The notes under the pieces were generated by a model, which ran no database searches, was not told the DNA's origin, and saw nothing but the letters and a program-made list of their open reading frames with translations. Positions 8,501-64,000 of a DNA stretch of 64,000 nt are shown in pieces. Within the stretch, counting starts at the first letter, position 1, and each line of letters opens with the position of its first letter. A program made the position numbers and the translations under genes. This stretch comes from Amia ocellicauda. Lineage: Eukaryota; Chordata; Actinopteri; Amiiformes; Amiidae. Where the stretch lies: contig NC_089853.1 in assembly GCF_036373705.1 (NCBI RefSeq), forward strand, positions 29,223,568 through 29,287,567, written 5' to 3'.

Positions 8501-11500
8501 AGTTTCAGGCTCGATGTGTTGCTGCTTCAATTTCATTACCTCAGTGGGCGGTTTAGTGCTTAACTGAACAAGTTATTTACTGGATAGGATACCTGACATT
8601 TGGGGGGATCTCAAAAAAGCACAGTAAAGACAAAAGGTGAATATATAATCTACAGAACACATATAATCAAAGGCGTCTGGGGGAGGGTTGGCATTGAGGA
8701 ACACCAATTGGCAGATGGCAGATAAGAAAACTGTGGTAAATAAATATAGCAACTGTCTGGGGGAATGCAGGTGGCTGAGCAGAAATTGAGGCCACAAGAA
8801 TGTGCACAGAAGTCTCCGAAGTTTAACGTTGTTCAGATCAGTAATCTGTAGAATTGTTAAGGTCTCTTGAGGATTTCCTTAATTGGTTTATAACAAGGAC
8901 ATCCTTATCTGTGTTAGTCTGGAAAATAGATCTATCCAAAGGTCATTTTCCCATGACCTATAATTTAATCATGTTCCCTTTAAATCAAACATTTCTACTG
9001 TACATATTTATCAGCTTTAGTTTTCTTATGCAGGGCGTTTGTAAATTATCAGTACAGTATCATGCTATCTCCATACTTGTGTAATTTATTTAGTACTTTG
9101 ATTAAAAAGGCATTAAATCTACAAATATATGGATGTCTAAAGATGTCTAAAGGCTTTCTGTAACTGCAATATAACTGTGCAGTACCACAGTGAATATTTT
9201 GTTTCTGAACTGAGATGAGTGTCTCTAGAATGTTGCTGACAGTAGGTAAACCTTAATTGATGTTAACCTCTACTCTGAAAACATACACTCAATTTAAAAT
9301 CCATGTCAGCCCTTAAATATAGGGAAGTATGCAGTTTTTCTACAATAGCAAGCAGTATAACCATTGTTTGCAAAACTCTGTTCCAATTGCATTTACTGAA
9401 GAGGAGCCAAAAATGCTCTAACCTTGGGGTCTTTGTCTGTAGCCAAACTGCTGAATACACACTGGAATCATATTCCGTAATGTCCTGTACTCATTTTACA
9501 TTTCATATTTTGCTATCCTCTATTATCAGAGATGGGTATAGAATTGTGTTTAGCATCCCTTAACAAAGCATATTAAAAAGTGTAAATGTTATTTTTCTTG
9601 ATCAACTTGGATCATTGTCAACATACATTGCAAGGATTCTTTTAAACATACTGTATCTTTGCTCCACTTCCCCAGAAAAGAGTACTAGTGATGTGAACGA
9701 GGGCAAGAATGCCATAAAAACACATTTCACAGTTCAGATACGTTTTTTTTTTTGCATGTTTTCAGTTACACCAACTTCAGATGTAGCCTAGTTCTGGGAA
9801 AGGTAGATACTTATATCTTGTATTGGTTAACCACCACCCGCAAGTAGTTGGTGCTGTTATGTGAATACCTTGCACATCCGAGCAACTCTGGAGATCCAAG
9901 GGTCCGCCTCTGGGCTGCTGTCGGAGTTCTTCTCCCGAAAGAAGATATAGATCTTATCGTTGTGTGGGTCTTCTTTTCTGCTGACCCAAGAGGCAGAGAT
10001 AAACGTTGGCTCTGTGGGAAGATCAACCATTAATTCACATCAGGAATCAGCACGCAGGGCTCAAGATCTGTTGAGTCTGTAATTGGTTGAGGGGGGGAGG
10101 GGGACTTGCTGTTTATCTCAAAAGCTCCATTCACTGCTTATAATTTAGCTTGGACATCACTACATTGCAAATTAAAAGTAAATATTACATACCAGACTCA
10201 AAAAGTTTAATGAAACTAGAACACAACTTACGTGATTACATCTAGATGTTTATTTGACAGTGCTTTTGTGTAGATATTAATCTAAACATTAGAAAAGTGC
10301 TCAAGGAGGATCTGTCAACCACGAAACCTGAGGTAAGGTGACGTAATATTGCGTGCTGTGCTACAACTCGCTCCTGATGCCTTGAAAAGGATAATGTCAG
10401 TGAGACTGTAGGACTGTGTCACAGTACTGCAGAGGTTGTGGGAATGTTCATTGAACATTTTGCAGCTTTTCATTGATAATCCTGTCTTTCCAGATCTTCC
10501 TGTCTTTTCCCTCTTCTGACCCTCTCATCCCCTCACGCATCTCTTCCTGCTTGTCTGCTATTTCCACCTGGATGCACTTGCACCACCTCAACCTCTCCAA
10601 ATCGGATCTCCTCTTTCTCCCCCACTCTTCCTCACCTTCTGCTGACCTCCCCATCTCGATCCCCTTGGAATCCACCACACTCTCTCCTTCTTCTTCCGCT
10701 AAAAATCTAGGAGTCACCTTCGATCCTGCGCTCTCCTACACCCAGCACATCACCACGCTGACACGCACCTGTAGATTCTTCCTGAGCAACATACGCCGGA
10801 TCCGTCCCTTCCTCACCGACTACTCAACTCAGCTACTTGTCTAGTCACTGGTCCTCTCCTGCCTGGACTACTGCAACTCCCTCCTGGCCGGCCTGCCTGC
10901 ATCTACTACCCGCCCACTCCAGCTCATCCAGAACTCTGCGGCTTGTCTGGTGTCTCTCTGCCCAGATCCGCACACGCTACTCCACTGCTCCGCTCCCTCC
11001 ACTGGCTCATGATAGCGGCACGCATTCAGTTCAAGACTTTGGCCCTCACCTACCGCTGTCTCGACCACACTGCACCAAGCTACCTTCAGTCACTCGTCTC
11101 TCCATACATCCCCTCCAGACCACTGCGCTCCTCCAGTGCCAGAAGGCTAACTCTGCCTCCTCTCCACTCTCCTTCCTCCAGAGCCGCTCCTTCTCATCCC
11201 TGGCCCCTAAATGGTGGAACGACCTGCCCACCGAAGTCAAAACAGCAGAGTCCTTGACCTCATTGCGGCGCTTACTCAAGACGCATCTCTTCCGACAGCA
11301 CTTGTAATATTAGTCCTCTATCCCTGCTAGATAGCACTTCACAGTTTTTATTATGCTTCTCGCGTTCTTGATTGTTTTCCTCCTTGCTCCCTTTCCCGTA
11401 GCCCTCGTCTGTGACCCTACATCTTGACAGCACTTAGCTTTCACCGTCCAGGATGTAGGAAGTCACTTACTGTACTTGTGTAAATTGGAATTTGTAAAAT

Positions 11501-17487: not shown

Positions 17488-20400
17488 ATGGTAAGCGCTG
17501 GATTCTCTTGTTGTCACATTTTAATATCAGTTACATTATTTTAAGACAGATGTTTAAGAAATATGATCCTACGGTCTTTGATATTAACTACTGTTGAAAC
17601 TCAAAATGCTTCGGATAGAGAAACTCACGTCTAGCTGGCTCATACTAGCAAGGTTATATCGCTGTTGTTGGTAATCGATATGTGTGGCTGAATTGACGTC
17701 TTTGTAATTGTTCAGAAAGCTGTATCTTTCTAAACTATGTTGTAGTTTAATGTGTCTTTCTCTGCTAGCGATTCCGGTTTTGTGGAGACCTGGACTGCCC
17801 GGACTGGGTTCTGGCGGAAATCAGTACCCTAGCGAAAATAGTTAAGTGACCGACCATGATATTACTGTGTTGTTGCAATCTGGATCTTTAGTTTTAGTTT
17901 GCAACCCTATTTTCTCGAATTACTGTTTAAGTCTCGGAAAATACTTATGTACTCCCTTATCAACTTTTTATAATATTGAATAATGTGAATACTAATCTTC
18001 TGATTAACGATTAACCACATAGATAATGTTCAGTCACAGTCAATAGCTTAACTTCGCCGATCGTGTTTTATATGACTATGAGGATATCCTAAGTACATAT
18101 GCACGTAGCATTATATCCTGATACATACAGTGACTTAATGTAAAAGTGACATTTAGTGAGCGGATTTGTAATTAATAAAGTCAGCTGTGTAACACTGAAC
18201 TAAATGGCTTTCCTATGTTGCAGTCTAGTGTAAAGATGAAGCTGTTGTGTATTCAAGTGCTGAAGGAAATCCTCGGTGAGGGCATTGATGTGAGTACAAC
18301 ACTGTATTAGTGATGTGCATGATAATATAACGTGCTTACCTATTTAATATGAAATTAGGAGTCCAGTTTAACTTCTGTGTAGTTATTTTATCAGAACTGA
18401 ACCAAAATGCAGCCATCGTCAATGTAACCATATTGAACTATTTCAAATTATGCTGATCTAGTAGGGGGGCCCAGGTAGAAGCTTTGAATGGAAAGATGGA
18501 TTTAAGAAGTGTAGTCATTAGTTATGTGAGAAATAAAATAACACTTTTGTCAGAGTGGTAACACAAGTCGCATAATCTAAACGCAATTTCCCTTCCCACA
18601 ATCCTCTTTCGCAGTATGAAAAGGTTGCAAAACTGACTTCCGATGCTAAGTTCGGTAAGTGCTATTTGCATTGTCTTCTTAACCATCTACTTTTAAAAGC
18701 AATTTTGAGTTTATGCAGCCGGTACTCTATTTCTTTTTGCAGGATCTTGGTTGGCAAATGTTTCTTTAAGTTCATTTGCAACTAAGTGCACCCTTATTAA
18801 ATGCCCAGTTTTTACTTTATTGATTAATATATCCTGTCTACTGTGCTCTCACACTATCTTCCTTTTACATTATTTAGTAATTTGCTTTAACTGGAAGTAC
18901 ATGAAGACTTTTTAAATAGTCTGTTGTTCTTATTAATTCAGTCAAATGGTGTACTAAAGTAACATGCCTTTTCATGAAGAACATTTTATGGAGTGAGGGT
19001 GAGCTTGAAACTATTGTTGTAAATAAGTTTGCATATACAGACAGGTGACAAATTAAAGGAAAAACCTGAATAAATGAGTGGAGGAACATAATGAAAGCAG
19101 ATGCCTCCAAACAGGTGTACTGCATGATACAATTAAACAATTAACATAAATCCTGTCATGCTCTGTGGCAAGTATAAAAATGCTGAGCAGGCCCAGTTGA
19201 CATCGATTTTGGATCAAGATGGCAAGAGGAAAGGATCTAAGTGACTTTGAAAAAGGGGTCATTATTGGGGCACGATTGGCAGGAGCTTCAGTTACAAAGG
19301 CTGCTCAACTGGTTAGTGTTTCAACAGGAACAGTGACTAAAGTTACATCTGCATTTAGATCTATGGAAACGACATCAGTAAATAGGGTTGGAAATTGTGG
19401 TCGAAAGCGCACATTCAATGACCGTGATGCTCATGCATTACTGTGATATGTAAGGAAAAACAGAAGAGCAACTCTTTTCCAGGCGACTGAGAATGTCAAT
19501 GCAGGACGTGATCAATCTGTGTCAGCAAGAACAGTCTGTGGAAAACTAGACAGGGATATTATAGTAGGGTTGCAGTGCATAAACCCCTCATTACAAAGAC
19601 AAAAGCACATTTGAGAGTTCGGTGGTGCAAAAACCAAAAGCACTGGTCTACAGAGATGTGGAAAAAAGTGATACGGTCAGATGAGTCATCCTTCACCATA
19701 TTCTCAACAAGTGGGCTAGTGCATATGTGGCGACACCAAGAGAAGGCTTGACTGCTTGACCCCTACAGTGAGGGGGTCTGGAGGCTCTGTTATGCTGTGG
19801 GGGCCATTTTTCTGGCATGGTTTTGGTCCATTTGTCCCCTTAGAGGGAAGGGTCAGTGCAAATCATTACAAAGTTATTCTGAGTGATCACCTTTATCCTC
19901 TGGTGAAACATTTATTTCCTGATGGGAGTGGGCTCTTCCAGGATGACAATGCCCCCATCCACAGGGCACGAGGGCTCACTGAATGGTTGGATGAGTATGA
20001 AAATGATGTGAATCATATGCTATGGCCTTCGCAATCACCAAATCTCAACCCAACTGAACACCAATGGGATATTTTGCACTGACGTGTTAGCGCTCTCCAC
20101 CATCACCATCAAAACACAAAATGAGGGAATATCTTTTGGAAGAATGGTGTTCATCCCTCCAGTAGAGTCCAGAGACTTGTAGAATCTGAAGAGCATTGAT
20201 GTTGCTCTGGTGGCTCGTGGTGGCCCAACACCTTACTAAGACGCTTTATGTTGGTCTTTCCTTTAATTTGTCACCCGTCTGTATATGTGTGTTCACTGCT
20301 ATCATAATCAAAGCTGTAGCTCTTCTCACTTCAGTGCTTGTGTTTGTCTGTCCTGGTTTCAGAAAGTGGAGATATAAAAGCCAGTGTTGCAGTTCTGAGT

Positions 20401-23094: not shown

Positions 23095-24288
23095 GTAATG
23101 TTTAATAACAAATGTCAGTATTTCACAAAAAGCATATTACGTGTGTGCTGTGCATTATATAATGTCACCCTACAACTGTGAATTGCTACAATCACGACGA
23201 AACGTGGCAGAAGCTTTTAAGATAGTACGATCTAGTAACAAAATATTTTTGTAACAAGATGACGGGGTGAATAGCGATTTCCTGTTTGAAAGATTCAGGC
23301 ATAAAGTCATGATCTGTAAATATAATGTAATTTAGCAGACATGTTTCATAATGTAGTCTTCGAACATAAAGCGATGCATTTTGTAGTGTAATATTTTACC
23401 AAAACGCATCTGCTCGTTTGTTTCTAAATGTATTTTAAAATGGTTAAATGCATGCTCTACTAGCAGACCGTGCAAGCAAACCTTAGTTCAGTGCGTGTAC
23501 GTTATCCGAGGGCGAGCAGCAGCACAGCTGTGCACATCCGCCAGTGCTGTTCAGCGCTGTGCATTACGTCACACCAATATTGTTCTGAAAATGAAATCTC
23601 GACCGATTGTTTTTCTTTTGCCCAAATTATAACATATTCAAATACTTTACAAGGATAAGGTGCCATTCTGACAAGTGCTTTCTTTTAGGCCATGGGGTAC
23701 CCGATGTTGCATGTTTTTGATCATAATAATGTATTTAGAAATTAGCCATGAATACAGCACATCAGTTTTCACATTACTAATAAAATATATAACATATGTG
23801 TCTATATAGCGTGAAGCTATTTACATTGTAAAACAAGTTTTTAGATGCTGATTGGGTATTATGTGGTCTCTGAAGATCCAAATGAAGAATCCATTTGTGC
23901 AAGAAGAAAGTCCAATTTATGAGCTATTCTAATCAACACAATTAAAATAAATGTTTAACAGAGAAAACACATGTTTATAAAGTAATGGACAATGTGCTCA
24001 AAAACTAGTTACATTGACACTCTGAGAAGTGTCCTCATTCTGCTTTGATGTGGGGGGTTGGTGGTTGTTTATTCTTCAATCTGAAAGTTTACATAATGAG
24101 CTGGCTAACGTTTTTCTCTGAAGTCAATGTAGAAAATCATTGAGTGCCTATTCTTAGTCCAGGCATTTCCATAAAAGGATACATTTAGTAAAGGGTCCTT
24201 GAAAGCAAAGCACATTGTCAATTCGTTGTCTCCTGTGTGTGTTTTTAAAAGCTTTTCCTTCCCTAAGCCAGCCCACTTGTTCCTCGAG

Positions 24289-27200
24289 ATGCCAGAAGGC
24301 CCTGAGCTGCACATGGCCAGCCGGTATGTGAACCGGGTGTGTGCAGGCGTGGTGTTTTCCGGGGCGGTGGAGAAATCAGAGGTCAGCAAGAACCCCGAAG
24401 TGCCCTTTGCTAGCGAGGCCTACCGCATCTCAGCCACCTCTCGAGGGAAGGAAATGCGGCTCACCCTCACACCAATCGAGGGGGAGGACAGCAAAGATGG
24501 AGGCGAGACCGGGGACCCACAGCCCATGGACGTGGTCTTCCGGTTTGGAATGTCTGGGTTTTTCCGGTTCACCCCGGAGGATGAGCTGCCCAAGCACGCC
24601 CATCTGCGCTTCTACACCAGGGAGAGGCCGCGCCAGGCTCTGAGTTTCGTTGACATCAGGCGGTTTGGCACCTGGGAGCCCAATGGGAACTGGCAGCCAG
24701 AAAGGGGGCCCTGCATCATGTTTGAGTACCACAGCTTCAGGTGTGGGAAGACCACAGCACCTAATTTGTATCCCTGTACCAAGTATACCCATGAGAGACC
24801 TGGTGTGACTTATATGTCATATACAGCAGTCTGGCAAATAGAGACAATATATATATTTTAAAGCCTGTTAAATAATTTGGACATATTTTTGACCTCACAC
24901 TGGGTACTATGGAATAGATTTTGTGAAACCCCAGCTATTTGATTCCTGTTACTAGCGCAATATCTATATTACCATTTGAGTGCTGCCCAGGCATCATTAA
25001 AGCGATTTAAAAAAGATTCCTTGAAGCAGATTGTTCGATGAAAACAAGTATTCAAGTATTTTTAGCTGAAAGCAGTAAAACAATATATAGAACTCAGTAA
25101 ATTAGATACTCAAGCAATACAACATTAAACAAGATGAAGGCATGGGATGGGCATGGGAATTCAGCTTGTACAAACATACATTGTATTTTAAATCTTAAAC
25201 AAAAACTATAAAAAACATGCAAAATGTCCCAGTGTTGAAAGAGCTCTGCCAAGATCCACAGTAACAAGCATTCTTGCTTTCTCTGCAGGGAGAATGTGTT
25301 GCTGAACCTATTGGACCGTGCGTTTGACAGGCCCATCTGTGAAGCTTTACTGAACCAAAAATACTTCAATGGGATTGGGAACTACCTGCGAGCAGAGATA
25401 CTTTACAGGTGACCATTTGCAGGCCACAGCACAAGGCTGTATGATTCCATATCGAAACATCTGCCAACTAGAATCCTTGAAGGTTTAGTGTCCTTTGTCA
25501 CTTCCTTTCATAACATTTAAAATTTAATTGCACATAACTTAGAACTTTCCTTAATTCTGTTGATGTCAAGCATAATTATAAATATTTATAACCGCTCCTT
25601 AAGTTTTTCCATAAGGAACACCCAGACAAAGAAGAAACGCCTTCATAATTAAAAACAGCATTTCAGACACATCAGTGCACAATGCGTGGTGTATCAGAAT
25701 ATTGCTTTGGGCAGATGGCATGGTGTGTCAGTCCTTTTTCATAGGGATTTGGGAAAGTAAAAAAACACTTTGCAACCAATTTAGCTCTCCTTTTTATAAA
25801 TTTTTTTTCTCATCAAAAAGATATAGAATAAGTATTATTAGAAATGATGCATCTAGGCTATTTTGAGCTAATCTATATATTCCTAATGCTTCGTCCCTGG
25901 ACAGGTTAAAGATCCCCCCATTTGTAAAAGCAAGGACAGTGCTGGATGGGCTTCTATTAAAGGACCATGCTGAGAAGAATGCAAAGCGTGCCAAAGAAGA
26001 GAGCACACCCGTTCAAGTGAGGGCCAATGGCGATCGAATATCGCAACCTATAAGCTACACTGTGTAACTTGCTCCTGTAGTTCTGCCGTCTCCTGTCTTG
26101 TGCCCTCAGGTGTCAGAGATGAGTCTGAGTAAGAAGGTGAAAGTGAAGAGGGAGACTCCCGATCTCCTCAGTCTGTGTCACACTGTGCCTCTCGAGGTCC
26201 TCCAGTTAGGTACCATCCTCACTGTCTGATAGCTTGTGTCTTGGGGCAGCTCCCTCAGTGGTTTAAATCAGTGGTGTCCTTGAGATCTAACCGTCTGTAC
26301 TGTCGTCTTGACAAGTTTAGTGGAGTATTCTTATAGTCATAACAGAAATGGATATTCCATCAATATAAATGCTTAGGGAAGTACTTAAAGGGAACCATTT
26401 CCATAGCTGGATCTCACACACAAACGGTTTAAAACTCGAGTTTCAGTAGAGAACGATTTTGTGCTATAGGAGCATATAGGTGACACTGAATATGACTGTG
26501 TGAAAGCTCAGCAATTTAGCCTTCAGATTAAATTACAGCAGAGTGGGAAGTTCAATCTTAGTGTGTAGGTGTGTGTGGGGGGGGGGGGGGGTGGCAATGC
26601 CAGTATTTCATTTGTATTATGTCTTGGTGTGTTTTGGTGTGTATGGTAACCCGGTTACTCTAATGTGATGGAATATTCCTTCAGCACTGTCACTGTGGGC
26701 CTGAACTGTTTTCAGCAGCACAGATAACTTGTTCTGTCTGTGATTTCAGGGGGTAAGGGCTATGACCCAGAGCAGTCTGGCGACTCATCCTTCCAGGAGT
26801 GGCTCCAGTGTTACTGCGTGTCAGGGATGAAGTCCTTGAGAGACCACAATCGCAGGACCATGTGGTTCCAGGTGAGGTCACAGTAAACTGCAACTCATTG
26901 TCCTTTCCATTCACTTGTAATAAAAAAGCAAAGGGAAGCATGTCTCATCTTAACGTTAAACTACTCATCTGAAATGCTTATCTGCAGTTGTTGTTTTCTA
27001 AACTGTACTCACAAAGGAGCTGTACGTGCTATGTCCGGGCGACATGGTCTGGATCCTCCACTTTTCATTCTGAAATAGCTGTGCACACATTGTTTGGTGT
27101 GTAAAACAGACCGTACCCAAAACACGGAATTGAAAACAAAACCAGGAAATGCGCACAGCTTCATAATAAATAATGACTAATAATAACCTTGGCAAACTTA

Positions 27201-35500: not shown

Positions 35501-38500
35501 GACATAGTTCAGCAAGGTCTCGGGAGTTTATCTGATGTCTGAGAGATGTTTATACGGACTTCTAGATTCAGAAATGGAAGGTATACTAAATCTTTGGGCA
35601 AGAATATTTCCACAGGTTATAGGAGGGGTGAAAATAATGGATTCCTACAGTGTGACCTCGCTGACACTCATATCATATTATAATAATGAATTTGATGTGA
35701 ATGCTCTTTTACACAAATTCCCCTGGTGTGTTTCTACCACAGGTGCAATGGAAGGCAGCTCCTGGCACACACACATACTTGAGCCTGCGTTGTGTAGGTG
35801 CCGTTGTGTAGCTCCAGGAATAATTCTCCAGTCCAGGTGCAGAGGAGAGCAGAGTCATCTTCGAGCTCTGTGAAGAGTTTGTCAGGAGTGGACATCTGGA
35901 CCCTGAGAGTCAAAGCACCACCAGGAGGAGAGGGCCAGCAGTGATTTTGGGAGTCAAACACTGAAACCATCTTTTTCAGTGTTCCTGCTCATCAGCACAT
36001 ATTAAAAACTCAAATTAAGTCATAGTTTGACTGTAATTTTTGTATCTACACTACACTGAAAAGGCAGAGTTTTGAAAGACAACTTATTTTGGGGTATTTC
36101 AATTTTGTTGTTAGTGTTCTCAGATTATTTTACATATCATAGTAATAAACCAACAAATATAAACCACCCGCCAGAACAGAGCCCTTTCTATGTTTTCTTC
36201 ATTTTGGCTCTTGCTTCTATTCAATATATAAATACAATAAAACAAAAACAGAATAAAATTTCCAGTGCACATCCTTTGCTTTAAATGTGTTTTTGTTTTC
36301 ACATAACAAATCTTAACTTCAATAGATACCACCCTGTCACTTGGGACCCTTGGACAGCAGACATTTCCTCGCCTAATCCGGTTTGTACTGCTTGATGTGT
36401 AGTGCCAGAGGGAGTTGTCTGGCTGTATCTCTTAGGTAACCCATTCAGCACCTTGAACCTAGGCCAGCTGAGCTCACCCTGCACTCTGAGCAGGATGATT
36501 TCACATTGGTACCGTATTTTAGTTTTAGAAGCAATATCTCACTTGGGCAAGCCGTCCGTGTCCCAGACCCGCTGTAGTCGATCTAACATGATCTGCGTGG
36601 GTCCCCCACCACCGTCACCGTATCCAAATAGCACCGCACTGTGATTGGCCCTCCCCTTGTCCTTGTTGTTCCTCACAGTGTTCAGCAGCTGAGAGAGAGG
36701 GTCAAGACACAAACAGATATTACGGTCTATAGCTATAGCAGGGAGTGACTCGAGGTTAAAAGAGGAGAAGGAAGGGTAACTCACGTCCTCCACTTTGCAC
36801 TTCATCTCGTACGAGTTCCCAGGGGGGAAGTGCGTCAGAACCTGCGAGCCATCCAGGCCTTCCCAGAAAAAGGTGTTATGCTGGAAAAAAAGAGTTGAAG
36901 AGTTATGATTTAAGGCAAGTAACTACTGATTAACTGATGCCTGTGAAGATTTGTTCACATTTATTTTTACAACACAGGTTTAGACAATGCCAAGACTGAC
37001 ATCTCGGGGCCTTATTGACAAAACAATCCCAGAAAAGCTTCCTTCTTTACAGCAAATACAGAATTGTGGTTGAATATTCATCAGAATCTGTCTTTCTAAC
37101 AAAAACAAAACTCCCAAGTGCCCTCGATTTGGACTGCTTATACATTGACACGTTTCTGTTTTGATTGTGTCTAAAAAGTGGACTTTGGCTTGAGAGAATG
37201 GCAAGTGCTGTTTTGATAATACTACACAACCAGCTTACCACTGGGAAGGGAAGAAAAAAAACGACAACAACTTTGTGTCTGTGTTATATAACTCAAGTAT
37301 TAATGGCCTCAGAGGCGTTTGAATGTGGTGCCCTTCACAGCCCACACTCCTTCTGCAGTGAGAGATGGATTACAGTACTCACAGGGAAAGTGTTGACCAG
37401 ATTCCAGCTGAGTTTCTGAGTCAGAAATCGAGTTATCCCGCAGCCCCGCATAATCTGTGGAAGCTGTGCCGAGTATCCAAATGTATCTGGTAACCAGAAC
37501 TGAGGACAGAGACAAAGGAACACACTGAATAGTATGAAAAAACTGCAACAGAATGTGTTACTACCCATTATGTCTTACACAGGAGCATGGCTATTATTTA
37601 AGGGTGCTATGTATTGTTCTCAATGAGGTGAACTTATTTTCCTATACATCATGTTGTGAAAGAGGTGATTATTACTATACAGACAGACAACATTTTGTAT
37701 TATTACTAGCCCTATTAAACTGATCTATAGTGAAGAAGAACAGAGACTCTACATATATGGCTTTGTGTCTGCTATTTGTCATGAGTCATTTCAAGAAACT
37801 TTAAGTGTGGGGAAGAGGTGATTATTCAAGGCCACCCACTGTGAGTGAGTGTGTGCGTGTGTATCTGTCTTTTTCACCAGGTTAGTGCCTGTTACTCAAA
37901 ACATGGATTCAAAAGTTGCTAAATGCCAAAGGAATAATGTTGTTTATCTGCATTAACTTCCATCCATCTATCATGCATCAATAACCACTTCATCCAGTAC
38001 AGGGTCACATTAACTCGCTAATTATTATTATTATGTTTTTTTTTTAATCCCTGTTTCTGGTGTCTTTCAAAGCTAATGTTCTGTTAATCTTGGGTACAGT
38101 GCAGAAAATTCAAGGGGTTGAGGATTAAATACTGATTTGTCCACACCTCAGAGCAGTACCTCCCAAACTCTTTGTAGAAGAATCTTTGTCCTTCCAGGAA
38201 CTGTCTCACCATGGACTCCCCCGAGGGCAGGTTTCCATCCTGAAACAGACGGAGATATGGTCATAATCTCTAAAATAAAAGGATTAAAAAGATAACCATA
38301 TTCTTCCAACCAGAAAACACAATGCATAAAGGAAAACATTTACGCTTTCACTGATAAGAGCTCTGGCTTTTAAAAAGCATCTTAAACATGCTTCCTGTCT
38401 TATTGAAAGTTCAAAATCCCCTCATTTTAGTTTTGGAATGAAGCGTCTATTATTTAAAATGTTGACTTATGATTGCAATTACATTCTTGTTGTTGTTTTG

Positions 38501-41500
38501 TTTGGACACGTTACATGTCAAATTCAGTTCCTGTCTCACCCACACAACAATGAGCTTCCTGAGATCTCATTAGAGAGCAGTCAACACCAGGCTGAACATT
38601 GAATTACCATTTCCACCCATGTGCCTCCAACAGGAACAAACTGACCCTTGCTGGCAAAGTGCTGGATCTGGGAGTAGAGGCCAGGGTACCAACTCTTCAC
38701 CCACTCGAACTGCTGGGCCTGCAGGCAGAGCACACCCACAATCAGTCATGAGGAACCATGGCCGTCACACAGGTGAGGCGAGGGTTCCTACAGTACCTGG
38801 GAGCAGGTGAAAATGAACTCTGGGTTCTTCTCCATGAGACGAATGACAGTCACCCAGCTGCGGGCGCACTTTCGGATCGTCTCCTCATAAGGCCACAGCC
38901 AGGCTGGCAGTGTGCAAGGATTACAGTTAGCACAATGATACACGTAGTATTTACTCCAAGTTCAGTTCGAAAGTCAATTACAGTTTTCTGTTTGGCTGAA
39001 TAACAGTAATAATAGTCACTTAAAGTCTGCTTCAAACATAATGACACAGCAGGCCACCTTTCTGGCATTATGAGTACATACACCACAAGCTGTAGATGAA
39101 ACACTTGGGGGTGTACTACATGTTATGTTATGTAAAACTTACAGCAACAGTATTAGAAAAACAGGACTATTTTGTCACGCTATGTTCATCATGCACAGAA
39201 GAACTAGTTAAAAATGTATAATCTCCTGTGGCCAGTTACAGTGGAGTTTGCCCTTAATAATTAACCCAGTACCTTAACACACTGAAGTCAATATGCTTTC
39301 AGGAAAAGACTGATGGATTTTATACATTATTATTATTATATGCTTAAGGCTCATGTGGCCCAAGTGAGCTTGCTGTGAACAGGAGCAGGTGTGTCAGACC
39401 GGAGTCGATGTGGCAGTGGCCCATAGCGTGTGCGGTGTGCTGGCTCTGGCCGTTCCTCTGGCTGAAGAACCTCTGTGCCAGCTTGCGGGCGGCGGGGAAG
39501 GTGCCTGGGTCAGTGGGGTCACACAGGTTCACAATCTCATTGGCTGTGTACAAGGCCTGGTAGCCCCTCTGCTCACTCTCACCTAGCAACTGTCAGGACA
39601 GTCCATCGCCAAACAGAAATAAGTCAATGAAAGAACTCGGTATGCTACACAACTGGCTATGAAATGATGCTCAAAGTGGAGGGTGTACAAACTTCTGACC
39701 CCCTCCCATGAACCTACAGTGCCACTTTAATGTAGTTTATACACTGCTCATATATTGATAAAATGAACAAAGGGGCATAATAATACTAGTATTACTACCA
39801 CTAATATTAATTAAATTGTTTTGCTTTTTTTTTGCATACTGTACCTTCGCAATGTCAACAAGCATCTCAAAGTCTGTCAGTAATGCACTGACGTCACGAT
39901 TGAACACTGCCAACTCTGCCCTCTGGACGGAGTACTTCCTGTCAGGGTCAGGGGGTGCGATCATGGATCCCTGTCCGGCACCAAACAGTCCATTACAGGC
40001 CACCTCCACATATAGGGTGACACTGCAACACAGGGGAGGGAGGATTCTTAGAGCACGGAAGAGCAAATTGGTCAAGTAAGTCCACAACAAATTTACATTA
40101 TGCTTAGTAAAGCTTCAAATGTAGGACAAAAGATCTCAGAGAGTAATTTCATGCACAAGTTTGTTCTTCAGATTTTTAGGCAGCTTCATTGTTGCTGAAA
40201 GCAATCCAAGTCAGACAGTATTTTTCCTATAAGGTTTTTAGTTCAAGATGCTTGTATTTGTTGAAATTTTAACCAGCTGCTTTACCAAATTCAGTTTTAC
40301 ATTTTGGTCCTAGATCATCTGGAAATGGACCTTTCCAGTACAGGGATGAAACAGTTCATACATCAAAGCGTGGGAATTTGGCATGGCTGAAGTCAACAGC
40401 AGCATAAAGGTAACTGATTGATCTCAGTAACTGACACAACAGACCTATGTGGCGCCTCATCTGTCAGGCTCTCTGACAAAATGTAGATTGTCTTCTCTCC
40501 CTCCTTTGTTAGGCCCTGTGGAGCAGGAAAGAGAAACACAAACTATCGCTGATATATCTGACACGCAAGGACAATAAGGGATAAACCAAGAGTTTAAGAA
40601 TAGTTTGTGAGGGTTGGTATCTCCCTAGATGATGTTGAACCTACAGATATTTCCACATTACTGGTGGGTCAATCGCTATTAGCAACAATAAAGAGTCCCA
40701 CAGGATTTAATGTGTATAAATGTGTATACATGCCAGAATTCTCATCCAGTAGGCTGTTTAAAAACTCTATGGTGAGTCTAGAACTGTAAACTGCAGCTGA
40801 AGGGCATTGTAATGTGTGTGCGTGCGTGTCTTCCCACCTGAAGCTGCTGCCCATCCCTCCAAACCATCCCCTCTCCATCACTCTCCCATCGCAAGTGAAC
40901 CTCTTTCCCCATCCAGGCATTAGGGATAGTCAAAGACACTTTAAACCAACATGTCCACCATCTATAAAAAGCAGAAAAACGGTCATTTCAAAACATGAAA
41001 TATTACGCGAACGCAATTTTATTTCAGTTTAGCAGTTCTTAGTCTAACAAGTATTTTAGGGAGTAAAAGTTTCCATTTTACTGAAAGTGTTATCTTTTGT
41101 CTCCCAGTAGGTAGGAGTCTCTAACACCATATCTATAATCAGCTTTATGCCTCCACTTGGTACACAGTAAATACTGACAAAACTGTTTTCTAATGACTAA
41201 TACAATTATACACAATTGCCCCTTTCTATTGAACACCCAATGCAGATAGATGTTTACAAAGTATTGTCAGTGATGCATTTTTTGACAGTACAATAATACT
41301 CTTGGGAAATGCATATGCTGTGAAAAAGAGTGTTCTGGAACAGAAACGGTTGAGTGCCACAAGATTCTGCTAAAATGCAAAAGGAGATTGAATATAACAG
41401 CAACAACAACAAACACTAGATAGATATCACACTTTATTATTGTTATGAATCATACTCACGTAGGTCCAAAGCTGTCCCCGACCTTACATGGTTGGAAATT

Positions 41501-54588: not shown

Positions 54589-57500
54589 TTATACTTTGGA
54601 AATATCTTCCTCTTTCTTGCTGGATGGTTTGAAGATGACATCTGTGTCCTTCTGCAGGTTCTTCTCAGCTCTGTAAGTGAAACAATCAGACAAACGTTTA
54701 TTATTATTTGCAGACATTTTTGCACTTGTTTTCACACTGTAAGCATTCTGGTTTAAGTGGAAATGTCCATCTTAGACTGTGTGTGATAAAGTGTGGTTTG
54801 AACTTCATCATGGACCTGTGAGAATAATCAATTTGGACACCTAATGCCTGGCATGACCTATTTGTTTTTACCAGCTAATGGGCAGCTCTATCTTCAAAAA
54901 TGGGGAAAAATAGCAGGAAGAAGGAAGCAGAACAGAGGCAGGACCACAACTGGCAAAAGAAGGAGTCCCTAATAAGTAGTCCCATAACCACCATTTACAT
55001 AGCTTTATTTTGGCTGAAGATAATAGATGTGGTACCAGTTATCAAGAATTCTGAAAAGCTATTATTAAATCAACACAAGCTTATTTTCAATGTAGGGGGG
55101 AAACCGCAATCCTACTGATAGCTGTTCCAGTCTGTATGTCTACAGTATTAAATATATTTTTCCAACCTTTCCTAAGAGCCACCATGAGGGAACAGGCTTT
55201 GACAGTGTTCTTGCTGAATGATTAAACCAAAAAGAAACATTGTACAACTTCACTCTACATCTTTCGGCTGATCTAGAGAGTCCAGATAGTTTTGCAGTTG
55301 GGTGTTATTATTTTTTAATACTGATGTGGAGAATGACACGCTTATAACTGAAAGTTATGGTGCCCTTCAAACAGGAAACCCTCCACAGAGTGACATTTGA
55401 TTCAATCTATTACTAGCACCAAGCCAACAAACAAACAAAAAAGCAGGCTATACTTGTACCAAAGTTATGTCAATCTCTTTGCCTGAAATAATCTGAGAAG
55501 TTTAATGTTCCGTTCGCTTACATTGTGGATCTATTTATGAAGTCAAGTTATCTGCCAGAGACATTTTTCTTTCCTTTGAGGGCCTGTTAAGATATATGTG
55601 CCATTTCTCCAGCTGACAAGTGCTACCTCTTTTTAACCTGGGTGCTTATCATCTTTACCCATTCAGAATTTCTGCACGGTGCTGAATCTGCCAGATGCTA
55701 AATGCCCTAAAAATCTCAAAGCCTTATTCTTGCTTCTTGATTTCATGATTGGAAAATGATTAAAAAGGTTATAATTGTTGGGTTTTTGGTTGTGTAACGA
55801 TTGGAAGCCACAAGACTACAATTACACAGAAAATTACCAATTGTGTCAAAACATATTCTATTGTTATTGACTACAAAGTGAAGGCTGCTTTAGATTTTAT
55901 TTTTAAGTACATACTGTTTGAATTAAGTAACCCAGTTATTTAAGCGGTGCATAAAAGCAACAATAACAAAAATAAGGCTGAAATGCAAGAATCTGCCAAT
56001 CAGATCCATTCCCTGAGATCACTATTTCAGGTCTTTGCGGTCATGCTAAATGTCTGTGTCAGTTCACTAAAAGGTCATCCTTGCAGCCATAATGTAAGTG
56101 ACAGCTTCTGCTAGCTATACAGTAATATAAAGAAACTTCCATGCTGTAAGATTCTGTTGATGAGATTTCTGGGGGCAGACAAAAACTAAACAAAACAAGA
56201 ATCATATATTTTTATTTTTATTTTTTATAAACTTTCTCTCTTAGGGTTGTCACCTTTGTTTGCCTGAGGCTGTAATACCATGTCTGTTTGGGCTGCACTT
56301 TCTGTGTTCCTACAGGTTCTGTTCTGCATTGAGCTCCATGTAAAAGGACACTAATGACAATGCAGTAGTGTTGGATTATAAAACAAACAGATTTATGAAA
56401 AGGTTTGCATGAGGTGTTGCTTTTTTGATTTTCTGCAAGTTGCCTCTGCTTTGTGGGATCCACTGCAGAGCAGCCGTGTTTTACAGTGAATGAGAAGTCT
56501 TAAGTTAATTACATCATTAGTCACAGCCTGCTTTAGCACTGCATATCTCTAACAAAAGTTAAAAAAAAAAAAGTCATACATAAAAGCAGAGAGAACACTG
56601 GCTTTTTATAACCCCCTTATTATGAGTCACTGCGTCGTTTTCAACCCAGAAATAATTTGTTTATGTTGTCACAATTACGGAGGGGTTCTCCTGTTGTCTG
56701 TTGCCACACATTAAGTTGAGTGGCATTCTTCTAGAATAAATATTATATATATATTTGCATTATTTAATCAGACTAACTACTATTAATAGTGCATATTGTG
56801 TATTGTGCATAAGTTTATCTGCTCTTTGTGAGATTTCACATATTGACTGGGATCCTGGGTGTTCCTTATTAGGGTTGAAGACAGGAGGAAACCAGGAGAG
56901 CATACAGTTCGAGAAGATACTCTGCTAGCGACTCACCGTTTCTTTCTCAGCACGAAGAACACAAGAGTCCCAATGAGGATGAGTCCCAGCACAGAGGCGA
57001 TGACAATAGAGAGAAGCACACCTGTAATACAAAGGAGGAATAAAAGAGGTAGCTGACAGCGTTATATTTGAATTACTGTAGATATATCTCACTGTGACGC
57101 TGTGTATATGTCTGGCCCCCGGATCTTTGTATGTTTTGATACTCATTCCAAGAATGTGTGAAGCTGGGTTGGGTTGAGTCATACTACAGTGATGAATTGG
57201 AATGTGGGAACCAGGTTTATTATGCATTAGTAAGGGCTTTTGTTCACATATAATTTAGGAAACTTTGTAAATGTAAAACATTAAAAAAAATCTTCACACT
57301 TAATATGTATGGGGAGTTAAATGTGTCCATTTGCAACCCTAGCCATTTGGAATACAGTGCCTGTATATATATCCCTTAATGAATGCCTTTGATTTTTATT
57401 TACTTACACTAAATTAAAATGCCAAAAAAAATAAAAAAATAAAAATCTAGCTGTTAAATACATAGCATTTAAATGCTTTCACAAAAGGCTTGGTGTATCC

Positions 57501-60500
57501 TCACCCTATAGTTGTATCCTTTACTGCATCTGTGATTTTTAAATAAATGAAGAGTGAAACAGCAGAGAGAATGACATGTTTGGCACACGGAAAACATGCA
57601 GGCGATCACACAAAAAACACACACGACAGAGGCAGATCACAGAAGTGACAACATACCCCATCTCATCCCAAGAAGGAGACCTAGGTCTTGAAAAGAAAAA
57701 CAGAAAGGAAGTCTTACTAAAAGATTGACAGATTAAACACCAAGCTGCAGACATGCCCCCCAGAATATAATGCTGTAAGGAAGAGGAAAAGAAGGAAGAT
57801 GAAGGTGTGGCTTAGGAGGAAAAATATAGTATATAGGTGTAATTTAGTCTTTACAGAGGCAGGCTTTCAATATCAATTGTATGATTATAAGTCCCCAGAT
57901 AATCACCCATTGTCCCCACACTCACACACACATACACACATGCATTTATAGGCAGATTGGACCAAGTTCAGAAAGTAGCTAAAAAGCTTTTTCTTTCTCT
58001 TTCTCTCTGTAAATGTATTGTATTCTACCAAACCCTCAAATTACTAAAATAAATGGGGCTGAATCGCTTCAAAGCTCAGTTTATTTTTAGTTCCACCATA
58101 CTGGGTGCATTTCACCTGTACTACACTGCTACAGTATGTATGTAACTTAAACCCAAAGGCATTTTCTAAAAACATAAATAAATATAAATTATAAATCAAG
58201 AAAAACAGTAATAGGTCTTACAGTTCCTCAACTATTTTTTATTATTATAGTATTGCTAAGAGTAACGTTGCTTTACAATGAATCAAATCAAGTGAATATT
58301 ATTCAGCATGATTAGTTTATTTTACCATCTCTCATATTAGGATATCGTTTTCGGAAAATCTGCTAGCTCAGTCCTCTAAGTGGTTTCCTTTTCATTTTAA
58401 ATGACACACCCAACGTGCTGACGAAAATATACAGCCTTATATATTTACATGCTAGTAAATCTTTTCAAATGACCATAGTGCTTCCGTTCCCACACATCCA
58501 TGATTTTAACCACTTATGTATATAACAATTACAACCCTGCATAACTAGTTATTTTCTATGAATATTTAAAAATATCATCAAAGTAATAAGCACCATTTTT
58601 ACATTCATGACATTTTTTAAATAACGATAGGTTTAAGACGTGTCATACAAAGAAAGTCTGACTCGAAGAGCAGAACTGCTACAGTCATGTACAAGAAGGT
58701 CTTACATACAATTCTGTACATCAGTCATCTGTGAAAAAGTCTCAGTAGAGAACACTATAAAGTGCCTTTTGTTCAAAATCATCCATAATTCCATCTTAAA
58801 TTTGAGTTTGGTAGCACACTAAAGTTTCTCCCAAGTGATGCATTACAATTTTCATTCTGATATGGTTACTAATTAATCTCTGACTATACATCACTTACAG
58901 TACTGAAATGTCACTTTAAGCACTGTTCAAAATGCTCAAATACCCGTATTCCTCATTAACCTCAATAGACATTTTGGAACTCAGATAGTTCTACATTACA
59001 GATCTTCTCTAGCCTAAAATATGTCTGGAGAGCCAGCTCCCGTATTGCTCCGTGTTTGTGAGAGCAGAGAGTTAATATTATTGCAACATTTTGATGGTAT
59101 TTATTAATGTAGACCTAGGAACTTGTTGGGTATATGTTTCTGAAAAGCAAGTGTCTCTGTATTTAGCGATCAAATTAGCATGGGTAGGTTCTTCACGTAT
59201 ACAGTCTTATTGTCTGTTGTCTCTTTCTCTCAGGGATTTACTTCATTATTCTCAGGAGGTGTTGCCCAGTTCATGCCCTGGGTTGTGGTTGTTGTTTGAG
59301 TGTCCAGGCCAAGTGCCTCCTGTTGGCCCAGCATGACTCTAATCCTCCCACTCAACTTCCTGCAGGTGCGGGCGGAGACTGGCCTTGCTGTGAGGGCTCT
59401 TGCGTGTCGTGGCGGTGGAGAGACCTGCTTGGTTAGCATCCTCCGAGATCATCTGGAGGACAGAGGGAGTCTTCCTTGCCCGCTGGCCCACTTTGTTCAG
59501 GGTGTGCTCCAGCTCTGCTGCCTCGTCCGTGTGCCGGTGGCGGAGGAGGTGCCTGATGGTGGACAAGGCGAGCTCTGACTTGCAGTCTAGGTAACTCATC
59601 AGGTTCAGCTCTGGGAAGACAGCCTCTTTAACGGCCTCCACCACTTGTCTGTCCGTGGGAATCCCCTTTAACCGGTGCCTGACCCGCTGCTCCAGAGTAG
59701 TGAAACACAGCTTGCTGTCTGAAGGCCAGTACTTGCCAGCCAGCCCCGTGTTTCTGGAGTTCTTCCAGTGCGAAGTGAATAAACTGGCACCATCTTGGGA
59801 CTTCACCTTAGGCAACTTCTGGTTTGGAAAGGTGCGGCTCCAGCTGTGTTGGTGCTTGCGGTCGGTTGACATTTTGCCGGCCCCTGGCTTGTGGGCCAGG
59901 TGTGGGAGCAGCCGGGACATTCCCTCGTCCTCCAGGTCCGATAGGTCGCCAGCTAGCAAGTGCTGCACGACCTGCCGCCGCAGGAATGGGGGCGTCATCA
60001 TGACTGCAAGGCCTCGGCCTACACCGGACACAGAGCCAATCAGTAGAGTTTAATACAGTTGTCCTGCAGGAGACCAGTGAGCGTGACCTGTACCTGGCCG
60101 TGAGGTATCAGAATGCTGCAGACATGCTCCTTGTGTGCTGCAGCAAGACAGATGTTAGTGTTGACTCTCATGCGCTGATCGGACTCACAGTCCCATTCCA
60201 TGCAGACCTCACCCCGGTTCCATGCATCCGACATGTAGCGAGTTTGTATTGCCATGCCTAATAGCAGGATTGAACCTCATCATGTGTTGTGCATTTATCA
60301 AAAACAGGCAGATTCCTTTGCTGTTTTTGTGTGTGTGTGTGTTATGCAGATCCCGTCAGCATGCAGGTTTTCATTAAAAATATTGTTTTTAATTTTTAGG
60401 TGTTTTCCATAATGTTTAAAAATAAACCATCAGCAAAGACCTCATCGATCATGTGGGGGACTGTTTCATTTGACTTGGTTGAGGGATATAGCTACTTCCA

Positions 60501-61880
60501 TTGGAGTAACTGAACTACACAGTCAAATGACACACTTTCATGCATAGTTTGCAACAGCAGAAGGAAAAAACAAGCAGGTGATGCCACGCCTGGGAAAGTC
60601 AGCTTTATGGTTGCTTGCTAGTAGGATCTATAAAGACATACTTTCAGCTTTGTAGCTTGTTTGCAAGCCAGACTTACAGTTTCAGCATTCAGTACTGCAA
60701 CTGAAAGTCGAGGGAATTGCGGTTGTGCGATAGCAGTTGAGAGGTTAACCATTTAATTCACTAGGAATGAAACCAGCCTTCTTCAGCAATATTTCAGTTT
60801 TACACACAGTAAATACAGGTAAAGCTCTTTATGCAGTCTTTAATGATTCTGTTCAGGAAAGACAACTTACCATCACGGAAAGAAACCAAGACGCGCCGGT
60901 CATCGGCCTCCTGCAACGATCTGAAGTTCTCCTTCAAAGATACAAGGTTGAGCTCTTGCTCGCTAGAAGCATATAGAGCTGTTGCCAGAGACAGGAACTA
61001 AGAAGAGAGCAAAATGTCAATTCCGCACTGACAAAGATCTAAGCCACTGTGCCTTGTGGTTCATATATCAAAAATGCCAAACAGCATGTATGTTGTTAAA
61101 AGGTTATATACAGCAGCCACAGTCACTTTTTCAAATTTAAATATCATGTTAAGGTTAGCCTAAATTGTGAGATGCACCTGTCCCGATGACTTACCTGGTG
61201 CTGTGAAATGCTGACCGGGTTCCTGAACACAGTCCAGAGCACGCTGGGGTAGCAGGGGGGAGTTGTCAAGGAGCCATCGTAGCGATAGTACTCATCTAGC
61301 CGAGCAGGGAGGAGGCTTCGGATATTAAATGCCGGCACCTGCACTTTTTGATCTGACAAAACCAACAGGATGCAATATGAGACTTAGAACCAAAGATTGT
61401 TGTCAGTGAGGCAAGCAGAGAAAATATACATTTCAAAGCATAAAGTATAGTGAAATAAGATTTGTTTTTATTATGGAAAGTACTCCTGAACTTAGTTGCA
61501 GAATATTTGCAAATACTTCAATACAGGGAGATTACAGTGTTACTTAATATATAGAATAAATATTGAACAGCATTCTAGTACAATAAAACTAGTATTTATT
61601 ATCTTTCAACATGAATAATAACTGGGGGCTTACCTTTAAACTGGATGCGATTAATGTAGGCGAGAAGTTGATCAAAGGCTGGATTGTATTGGCCCAACTA
61701 TATGAGAGCAAATGGCAGAGTTAGGGTTCAAATCATGAACACATCACTGAAACTCACTTCTGCCAAGTTCTCTAGGACTCTCACCTCGATTAGCACTCCC
61801 AGCACGGCCAGCCCGTCTTGTTTATCAGCTGCCACTGAGATGTTGGGGTATTTGTCTGAGTTGAAATGTACAACATGCAT
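54589..61880 (-). CDS. ca12: Carbonic anhydrase 12, 3' part (5' exons outside window)
   Basis: Exons in transcription order are 61785-61880, 61634-61697, 61195-61352, 60871-60997, 56937-57021 and 54589-54670. They encode the C-terminal ~203 residues. The catalytic-domain part reads [21 protein letters not shown] and [20 protein letters not shown], the last holding the conserved Thr pair and the Cys used in the extracellular disulfide of CA12. One transmembrane segment follows ([20 protein letters not shown]), then RKKR and a short tail with [13 protein letters not shown], parallel to VIYKPATK in human CA12. The enzyme hydrates CO2 at the cell surface. The N-terminal exons with the signal peptide and zinc-binding histidines are not in the window; 61881-64000 shows none. 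It converges with aph1b, as in human. An intron contains an unrelated reading frame (59339-60001). Confidence 0.93.
57657..57686 (-). other. Candidate 30-nt cassette exon of ca12
   Basis: On the minus strand, CTTTTCAAG|ACCTAGG opens and GATGGG|GTATGT closes a 30-base segment between the last catalytic exon and the transmembrane exon. Its phase fits exactly: included, it adds [10 protein letters not shown] before the membrane segment without changing frame. Human CA12 has isoforms differing by an 11-residue cassette at about this place, which makes this plausible. Use is unproven. Confidence 0.4.
59100..59105 (-). terminator. Candidate poly(A) signal of the nested gene
   Basis: A minus-strand AATAAA lies 234 bp after the stop codon of the reading frame at 59339-60001, inside the ca12 intron. 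A real 3' end here would make that frame a separate transcript or an alternative ca12 terminal exon. Confidence 0.4.
59339..60001 (-). CDS. Unrecognised 220-aa reading frame in a ca12 intron
   Basis: A 220-codon frame begins at the first of two adjacent ATGs (59999-60001), reading [20 protein letters not shown]. It stays open upstream to about 60050. It is GC-rich inside AT-rich intron sequence, unlike any random frame nearby, so coding is likely. The product is basic and soluble, with no membrane segment or signal peptide. It has a central helical-looking part ([20 protein letters not shown], then [20 protein letters not shown] and [17 protein letters not shown]) and an acidic end (EVEWED). 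I do not recognise a family. A second open stretch, 60040-60255 ([12 protein letters not shown]), lies just upstream in another frame and may be an earlier exon: GTACAG donors near 60086 and GTGTAG or TTGCAG acceptors near 60005-60020 would give a very short intron, but the phase does not fit simply. It shares strand with ca12. Confidence 0.5.
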   Translation of the reverse strand: MMTPPFLRRQVVQHLLAGDLSDLEDEGMSRLLPHLAHKPGAGKMSTDRKHQHSWSRTFPNQKLPKVKSQDGASLFTSHWKNSRNTGLAGKYWPSDSKLCFTTLEQRVRHRLKGIPTDRQVVEAVKEAVFPELNLMSYLDCKSELALSTIRHLLRHRHTDEAAELEHTLNKVGQRARKTPSVLQMISEDANQAGLSTATTRKSPHSKASLRPHLQEVEWED

Positions 61881-64000
61881 CTAGGAACAAGAACAAAGAG
61901 GATGTAAAAAGCCAGTCAGTCAGTGCAGTGATGACAGGGTAACCCAATGGCTATGAATTAGTGTAACCATTGCAATCAGACACTGTTTACACATTTAAAT
62001 ATATATGGAATGCTTTGTTCCAAATGCTTCAATTTGGAAGTAGGCATTAACCACGCAGACTGGGAATAAATAATGGGCACCTTGTGTTTAAAAATAAAAC
62101 AAATTGTTACAGCACTTTAAGGTGTACCACTGTCCTTGAACATCAGACTGTTTACGCTGGCATGAATAAAAAGAAGAGGTAGTTCCTTTCATATAGACAC
62201 TGGTGGCTGGTGCTCCAAGGAAACAGCTGTGCACAAGAAGCCTGTGGTTAGACATATAGTTGCCATGGTAAACGCCATTTTGAAGTTGGTTTTCAGCACG
62301 TCCACTGAGAAGGCCAGGACGGAATTAAACTACTCCATCAAGGACAATAAACTGCAGTAATATTGTCACTTTCCTTCTCCCATCCAAAGCATAACAAAAG
62401 TCAATTTCAAACCAGAAGTCACATTCAATAGAAACTACTGCAGTGTTAGGCAATCGCAGAAATTGGACACCTTTTCCCTTTGACCTTTTGTTTTTGGCTT
62501 CTTCTTCCAGAACTTGACTGAACCCTGGTGCATGTGTTGTTTAAGAGAACATCCTATTGCTCAGATTAGTCTTCAGAACCTGTACCACAGACAAGCTTTT
62601 GGAGTCTCAGTTTAGATAATTTACACAATCTTGAAGCATGGATTACACAGATCCTCTGCGACTCTGGAAAGTAAACTGCTCACCCCATTGAATCTGAGAT
62701 AAAGTCTTTAATACAATATATTTTAGACACATTGACAAACTTCAGTAATAGTATGTAAATCCTAAAAAAAGGGGGGGAAATCATGCTGGAATGAAAAAGA
62801 CTACTTAGAACAGTCCCAGAGACTTGAGTCGGCCAGACAGTGGGATTTCACTGGGCAATTTTATGATTTCTAGTCTTTAATTTTCTCCTTTTTAATTTTT
62901 GCCTACTTCAAATACTGGTTTAGAGCTTAAACTTAAAGAGCAAAATGTTTGATATAATCAATTCCAACTACTGCTAGCTATTTGTAATATCTGCAAAAAA
63001 TGTGTACCTGAATCCAGTCAAGAAATGAATGGTGCATTTAACTTTCTTTCTCTTGCTTAACAGATGAGTGCCTTCCATATACAGCCCCTCTAAGATCTAA
63101 AAGATGGAGAAGGCTGACACCTGAAGGTCCATTTTAAATGGTTAGTTTTCATTAAAACCCCCCAATGAAAAACAGAAATGTAGGTGGACACTCCTACCCT
63201 TTCATGCCTTTTACAGTTTAAACCATGTTAGAAGATGCATTCAGGGTGCAAGTAAGCACAAGAACACAAAAGCAGAGTGGCTGGCGTGGCAGTTTGGGCA
63301 CACATAATAAACAAGTAGTTTAGCTGTGGTTATGAATACAAGCCCAGCTCCAAAATGTAGCAATATTCTCAGCAAATTTGGTATTTAGACAAACTAAATA
63401 CTTAAAAAAGGGTAAGAAATAATTACATCTTTCAATTTTTCTGCTCCTTAATGTATGATTGAATATGTTAATATGCAGAAGGTTCTTGTCCTGTAGTTAG
63501 TGAGGATGGCTGACACAGCTCCCTGCAAGAAGTTTTGTTTGCAAGCCTTTTATTGTGACATTGCGAGTGTTTTTAGCACCACATATGAGAATCTGTCCTG
63601 AAGCATAGGGTACCCTTTAAATTACTTATTTTCTTGCAGGTCATGGTTCAGGAAGAGCAGATTGTTTTTGTTGGATGATGAAACTGCAGATTTGTTCACG
63701 ATTTTTATATTTTTAAATGAAAAAACAGCTTGATAGGGAAACAATAATCTGCATTAACAGATCACACTGACCCACAAATATCTCAAAATATGAAATTCCA
63801 TATGTTTTCCCAACTGATGTAATTGAATTTGTATTTAGCTCCATACCTATTCAATCTTTCATCTATATTACTTTAAATGTCTTTCATAATAATTTGTTAT
63901 GGACTGACAACCCACACAATTACAGACACATACAAATACTACTTTGGAATTAAAAACCAAAAAAATACATATGAGGAAATCATAATCAAAGCCAAACTAA
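61881..64000. other. ca12 intron running off the window, nothing recognised
   Basis: I searched the minus strand for the exon expected upstream of 61880, which should encode the histidine-containing zinc site and HWG-like motif of carbonic anhydrases. I did not find it, nor any plus-strand gene. The stretch is AT-rich and is best read as a ca12 intron. Confidence 0.55.

Follow-up and report, generated by a model that had tools for sequence, protein, structure and literature searches.

An intron of ca12 in the window (the whole stretch of DNA analysed here, 64,000 nucleotides) contains an intact open frame of 220 codons, stop included, on the minus strand at 59339..60001, delimited by its start and stop codons and by codon periodicity. 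Judged from its relatives in the same genome, this frame descends from the gag of a Ty3/gypsy (Metaviridae) LTR retrotransposon. It is likely to be a single-copy host gene, that is, a domesticated gag.

The frame and its host intron

A double ATG at 60001 opens the frame and a TAG at 59339-59341 closes it, within a stop-to-stop span of 236 codons (59342-60049, minus strand). The predicted product has a mass of 25.0 kDa and a pI of 9.6, with two cysteines in 220 aa (0.9%). Around the frame the GC content is 0.56-0.59 (400-nt windows, 59200 to 60199) versus a mean of 0.39 across the 64 kb, and in the frame itself the GC content of codon positions 1, 2 and 3 is 0.595, 0.432 and 0.755, respectively. 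An AATAAA that starts at 59105 (59100..59105, minus strand), about 230 nt past the stop, is a candidate polyadenylation signal by its motif.

The host intron (57022..60870, minus strand, 3.85 kb, phase 1) is defined by the exons that flank it. The last catalytic exon (60871..60997, minus strand) ends in the phase-1 donor GATG/gtaagt, and the transmembrane exon (56937..57021, minus strand) has the acceptor ttacag/GTGTG, also in phase 1. The last two catalytic exons best match CA12 chains in the PDB (E 1.7e-28), with CA14 second (1.6e-21), which identifies the host as ca12. The coordinates, the GC content and the flanking exons confirm the sequence-only reading in its description of a GC-rich frame of this length within a ca12 intron and on the same strand, and the paired ATG start and the downstream AATAAA that it reported are both present.

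The frame is judged to be coding because of its codon-position composition rather than its length. Length by itself is modest evidence: when 59339-60276 was shuffled 2000 times with dinucleotides preserved, a stop-to-stop frame of at least 236 codons arose in some reading frame in 12 cases. The periodicity of the frame, on the other hand, reaches a chi2 of 51.4, a value attained in none of 3000 shuffles (maximum 26.4) and in none of 300 shuffles picked for having at most two stops. Among 1056 sliding windows of 660 nt over the 64 kb, the frame came out on top (chi2 50.9), and the large exon that we take to be NEIL1-like scored 30.0. We also trained a position-specific model on the core of the frame only and scored segments against a non-periodic GC-rich null. 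The best periodic segment was 60004..59339, which runs from one codon ahead of the ATG to the stop, inclusive; against an AT-rich null it was 60019..59255. G or C occupies the third position in 7 of the 16 codons preceding the ATG and in 14 of the 16 following it. This periodicity, reaching from about the ATG to the stop, supports the proposal that a real protein-coding gene is nested in the ca12 intron. Open frames as long as this one do occur in shuffled sequence, as noted above, but a chance frame in a GC-rich patch would not account for the periodicity or for its boundaries at the ATG and the stop, and it is refuted by the Gag homology described below; we give this explanation next to no credence.

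Upstream of the frame lies a second open stretch (60040..60276, minus strand), which the sequence-only reading had placed at 60040-60255 and had associated with the gene. The stretch exists, but it appears to be non-coding: its periodicity is not significant, the same chi2 being attained in 252 of 3000 shuffles, and it may be 5' UTR or a product of chance.

The frame could alternatively be the last exon of a ca12 variant, whose product would be a carbonic anhydrase that ends in a capsid-like tail instead of the transmembrane anchor. Splicing from the phase-1 donor of ca12 at 60871 to either of two acceptors shortly ahead of the frame, at 60019/60018 and 60004/60003, would keep the phase, and the frame stays open from both. 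However, agreement of phase has a one-in-three probability by chance, and the codon signal begins near the ATG, which slightly disfavours the acceptor at 60019/60018 and is compatible with that at 60004/60003. A loose DNA splice-site pattern was uninformative here (3 matches versus 2.16 expected). We regard such a fusion as improbable.

Several other features of the window were recorded. By their domains, an Ig-domain exon lies at 2537-2971 (minus strand), a Fapy glycosylase at 24175-24858 (plus strand) and an alpha-mannosidase at 36542-40114 (minus strand); we take these to be semaphorin-like, NEIL1-like and MAN2C1-like, respectively. A transposase fragment at 19720-20079 (plus strand; DDE_3, E 5.4e-09) is presumably Tc1/mariner-like. 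Frames at 10455-11304 (plus strand) resemble, in our estimation, the last part of a LINE reverse transcriptase; the frame at 10786-11304 among these has no Pfam match, and a similar frame was seen by eye at L021:1736-2293.

Gag relatives in the same genome

Sequence searches with the frame against Pfam, PHROGs, NCBIfam and the PDB returned nothing real (best PHROG match E 0.12, best PDB match 0.067). No relatives were confirmed in the viral and prokaryote contigs scanned, and Rfam gave no match over 56500-62000. A ciliary or microtubule-inner protein, at which the sequence-only reading had hinted, was dropped as a candidate, there being no PDB sequence match. This gene was not found in the literature on ca12-nested genes, on nested genes and retrogenes, or on ca12-neil1 synteny (titles and abstract openings of open-licence PMC papers).

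The identification came from the genome to which the window belongs (988 Mb, 385 contigs). A DNA search of it, with very common words skipped, gave no second copy, the sole match being the frame itself. A protein search gave at least 31 places besides the frame at E<=10 among the best candidates scored. The best of these had an E of 1.8e-7 at 30% identity, and 23 had E <0.001 at 30-33% identity. They comprise long frames of 430 and 536 aa together with shorter or broken ones. In the reverse direction, a search with the Gag piece of one of them, L005, gave 70 places, and the frame locus is one of these (E 1.4e-7, 33% identity).

The relatives examined are read as Ty3/gypsy Gag proteins or remnants of them because of the domains that they carry or adjoin. 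A zf-MYND finger (Pfam) follows Gag in L005 (E 6.5e-06), L009 (6.5e-12) and L018 (5.9e-07). In L005 a weak RVP match lies downstream of Gag (E 0.041), and the next stretch of the same copy, L017, contains a reverse transcriptase (RVT_1, 5.6e-28) together with domains of RNase H and integrase. A CX2CX4HX4C knuckle was seen by eye in the Gag frame of 536 aa. No Pfam Gag family is matched by the frame protein or by the Gags of the elements, and since these element Gags have no Pfam family, the blank family searches of the frame are explained. The earlier statement that no family could be recognised is thus overturned by the relatives in the same genome.

A processed retrocopy of a cellular gene would also be GC-rich and have a single exon, as the frame does. 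The relatives examined, however, are retrotransposon Gags or their remnants, and the search of the own genome gave no cellular parent. There is no A-tail either: 58901-60900 contains a single A/T run of at least 6 nt, at 60565, which is upstream of the gene, and the 3' end of the gene has none. The suggestion of a retrocopy of a cellular mRNA therefore finds no support, and we consider it very improbable.

Some properties of the elements themselves may be recorded here. The MYND zinc finger sits between Gag and a protease-like stretch in L005:2616-3059 (plus strand), L009:70-894 (minus strand) and L018:2102-2497 (plus strand); no description of a MYND-bearing gag element was found in the open-licence PMC literature, judged by titles. 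On contig C2, an 8-Mb stretch (52.7-60.7 Mb) holds 12 of the 32 gag places from the search with the frame, each with one TGA and one TAG, as well as a second set of 10 equal-scoring places from the search with the L005 piece. This cluster looks like local amplification of a broken element. A further relative, at C20:8644356 (L027, C20:8640500-8647500), shows a 1740-aa open frame adjoining a long run of N, and this frame is probably an artefact of reading N.

The alignments indicate which parts of Gag the frame has kept. Near its start, residues 6-32 (59906..59986, minus strand) carry the Gag N-terminal motif LED-x-GM-x2-LL, with 44% identity to the elements over 27 residues. An HMM built from six element N-termini, with the frame excluded, matched the frame with an E of 3e-5 (3.3e-4 for the best single domain), and the next best among the six-frame pieces of 56501-64000 had an E of 2.2. 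Residues from about 80 to 179 (59465..59764, minus strand) are helical in low-confidence models and presumably form the capsid N-lobe, at 30-34% identity to the element Gags. The C-terminal tail (59342..59434, minus strand) may be a shrunken remnant of the capsid C-lobe, as weak alignments suggest. Missing from the frame are the first ~60 Gag residues, most of the capsid C-lobe and the zinc knuckle; no upstream exon with the missing N-terminus was found in 56501-64000.

The presumed capsid N-lobe aligns in L003, L005, L009, L012 and L018, and the N-terminal motif in those of them that retain that end. Columns were counted over seven element rows, with L004 and L005 excluded as near-duplicates of L003. 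The frame retains 15 of the 27 columns that are invariant in these rows. For columns with 80-99% agreement the count is 7 of 27, for those with 50-79% it is 13 of 40, and for the less conserved ones 2 of 14.

In two low-confidence AlphaFold models (pLDDT 47 and 61), residues 96 to 191 contain four to five helices. Foldseek searches with both of these poor models gave no capsid among the matches listed, and no match reached E<=0.001, the best values being 0.97 and 2.6; the four-helix bundles of the REV1 C-terminal domain among the weak matches were left unused, the models being poor. A PDB profile search with the Gag alignment matched no capsid. From its place in Gag and its motifs, we infer that the retained part is capsid.

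Domesticated gene or relic

Remains of an element were sought around the frame. When 551 frames from L003-L016 were compared with 55001-64000 by tblastn, the gag region itself was recovered, together with 25 residues at 57556-57630, elsewhere in the ca12 intron, that match a frame of L007 (E 0.004). With the same loci blastn gave a single match, also within the intron: 22 nt at 58171-58192 that are 91% identical to L010-L015 (E 0.007). The whole window was further compared with six pieces of pol and protease taken from L005, L009 and L017, and the one match lay far off, at 19039-19119, with an E of 0.87. No LTR-like direct repeats are present in 56500-61500, where one 20-nt pair has 85% identity. 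These searches covered direct repeats of at least 18 nt, relatives from the same genome, and loci extending ~1.5 kb past the Gag match, a flank that may omit the LTRs, so that an LTR of unlike sequence could escape. Within this reach, the LTRs, protease, reverse transcriptase and integrase of an autonomous Ty3/gypsy copy are absent.

In a tree of 14 sequences (170 columns), the frame groups with L003, L005, L009, L012, L018 and L022 with a support of 0.89, and its branch has a length of 1.78 substitutions per site. We simulated neutral decay of the frame, assuming one indel per ten substitutions (our choice of ratio). The frame remained intact in 21.5% of cases at 0.02 substitutions per site, in 2.9% at 0.05 and in 0.05% at 0.1, while at 0.15 or more an intact frame was found in 0 of 2000. 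An intact frame is therefore unexpected for a fossil, because the observed divergence is far beyond what simulated frames survive.

Base composition points in the same direction. Over the same region, GC3 is 0.76 in the frame versus 0.333-0.516 in nine relatives, whereas GC1 (0.594 versus 0.483-0.648) and GC2 (0.427 versus 0.304-0.419) differ little. Over whole frames, GC3 in eight relatives is 0.405-0.434. The shift being limited to third positions, the reading frame was respected as the sequence changed, on the assumption that the donor resembled these relatives; the donor lineage was not recovered from the genome, and its GC3 was taken to be that of the relatives.

As a control, we examined the 14 of the 70 places from the reverse search that are at most 40% identical to the L005 piece. 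Stops interrupt 8 of them, and 3 are open over no more than 109 aa. The remaining 3 are open over at least 236 aa. One is the frame in ca12; the other two, at C6:45884195 and C1:17728194, are nearly identical copies of another element, which were considered as further domesticated genes and rejected. By eye, a protease-like or RT-like frame lies downstream in these copies, and the frame in ca12 is therefore the sole solitary long intact one among the 14.

These results bear on the possibility that the frame is a solitary gag fossil, left by some GC-rich Ty3/gypsy lineage outside those sampled, which stayed open by luck and has no host function. The homology is indeed to mobile elements, and the stops in more than half of the control places show how common relics are. 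Yet, within the reach of our searches, neither an LTR pair nor pol or protease was found, there is no second DNA copy, and a relic of such age should be broken, as the simulated decay indicates. Moreover, long stop-free frames are confined to 3 of the 14 control places, the other two being element copies. We consider a fossil unlikely. Under the preferred reading, a domesticated host gene, the protein appears to have been kept by selection, to judge from the intact frame at great divergence and the change limited to third positions.

Possible function and known systems

If the frame is a domesticated gag, its product could act on related elements. A short transcript of its own would arise within the ca12 intron and end near the AATAAA. 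The truncated capsid protein made from it would bind the Gag of related elements present in the genome, enter their particles and spoil assembly, as RTL8 does with PEG10 and p22/p18 with Ty1. Such a capsid decoy is favoured because the N-lobe is retained, because RTL8 and p22 offer precedents and because intact related Gags exist in the genome; we put it forward tentatively as the most likely mechanism. RNA carriage and other known roles of domesticated capsids presumably depend on the C-lobe or the knuckle, and they seem to suit this frame less well. The proposal in its most specific form, in which a domesticated fish Gag fragment poisons the capsids of MYND-bearing Ty3/gypsy elements that this genome still carries and makes use of ca12 transcription, is more doubtful.

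The closest likeness is to RTL8A/B/C (FAM127). RTL8 is a Gag-derived truncated capsid (N-lobe) of 113 aa in which the zinc finger is missing. Unable to form particles by itself, it joins those of PEG10, binds the N-lobe of PEG10 and reduces particle abundance (PMC11684626). The frame, too, encodes what is presumably a truncated capsid, and it lacks a zinc finger. It differs in deriving from another Gag, one that has no Pfam match, in carrying an extra N-terminal Gag motif and in lying in a fish ca12 intron, and any decoy role for it would be by comparison with RTL8. The Ty1 product p22/p18 is likewise a truncated Gag, a fragment thought to block particle assembly (PMC8458377), and the frame may be likened to it by analogy. 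That fragment, however, is made by the element itself in yeast, from a transcript starting inside GAG (PMC8458377).

With domesticated metaviral gag genes in general the frame shares its Ty3/gypsy Gag homology, an intact frame with a start and, within the reach of our searches, the absence of LTR and pol. ARC, PNMA and SIRH/RTL genes similarly have intact gag-derived frames, no flanking LTRs and long branches, but they are mammalian genes that arose in at least five other events (PMC11011659). The frame was matched solely to the MYND-bearing fish element lineage, at the 30-33% identity given above, and ARC, PNMA and RTL were compared by description. From the elements of its own genome (L003, L005, L009, L012 and L018) it differs in that their Gags are longer, have a GC3 of about 0.41-0.43 and, where examined, are accompanied by a knuckle, MYND, protease or pol.

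The frame is thus best described, on its sequence features, as a gag gene that has probably been domesticated. No domesticated case from the same Gag lineage was found in the literature searched on domesticated gag in fish (titles and abstract openings of open-licence PMC papers). The best-studied capsid genes of this kind (Arc, PNMA, RTL) are those of mammals, in which the donors have long been immobile (PMC11011659). This genome still bears relatives with intact Gag frames, so that a host gene can be tested directly against the elements. A search for mobile relatives within the same genome gave an identity to what appeared to be an orphan by Pfam and the PDB.
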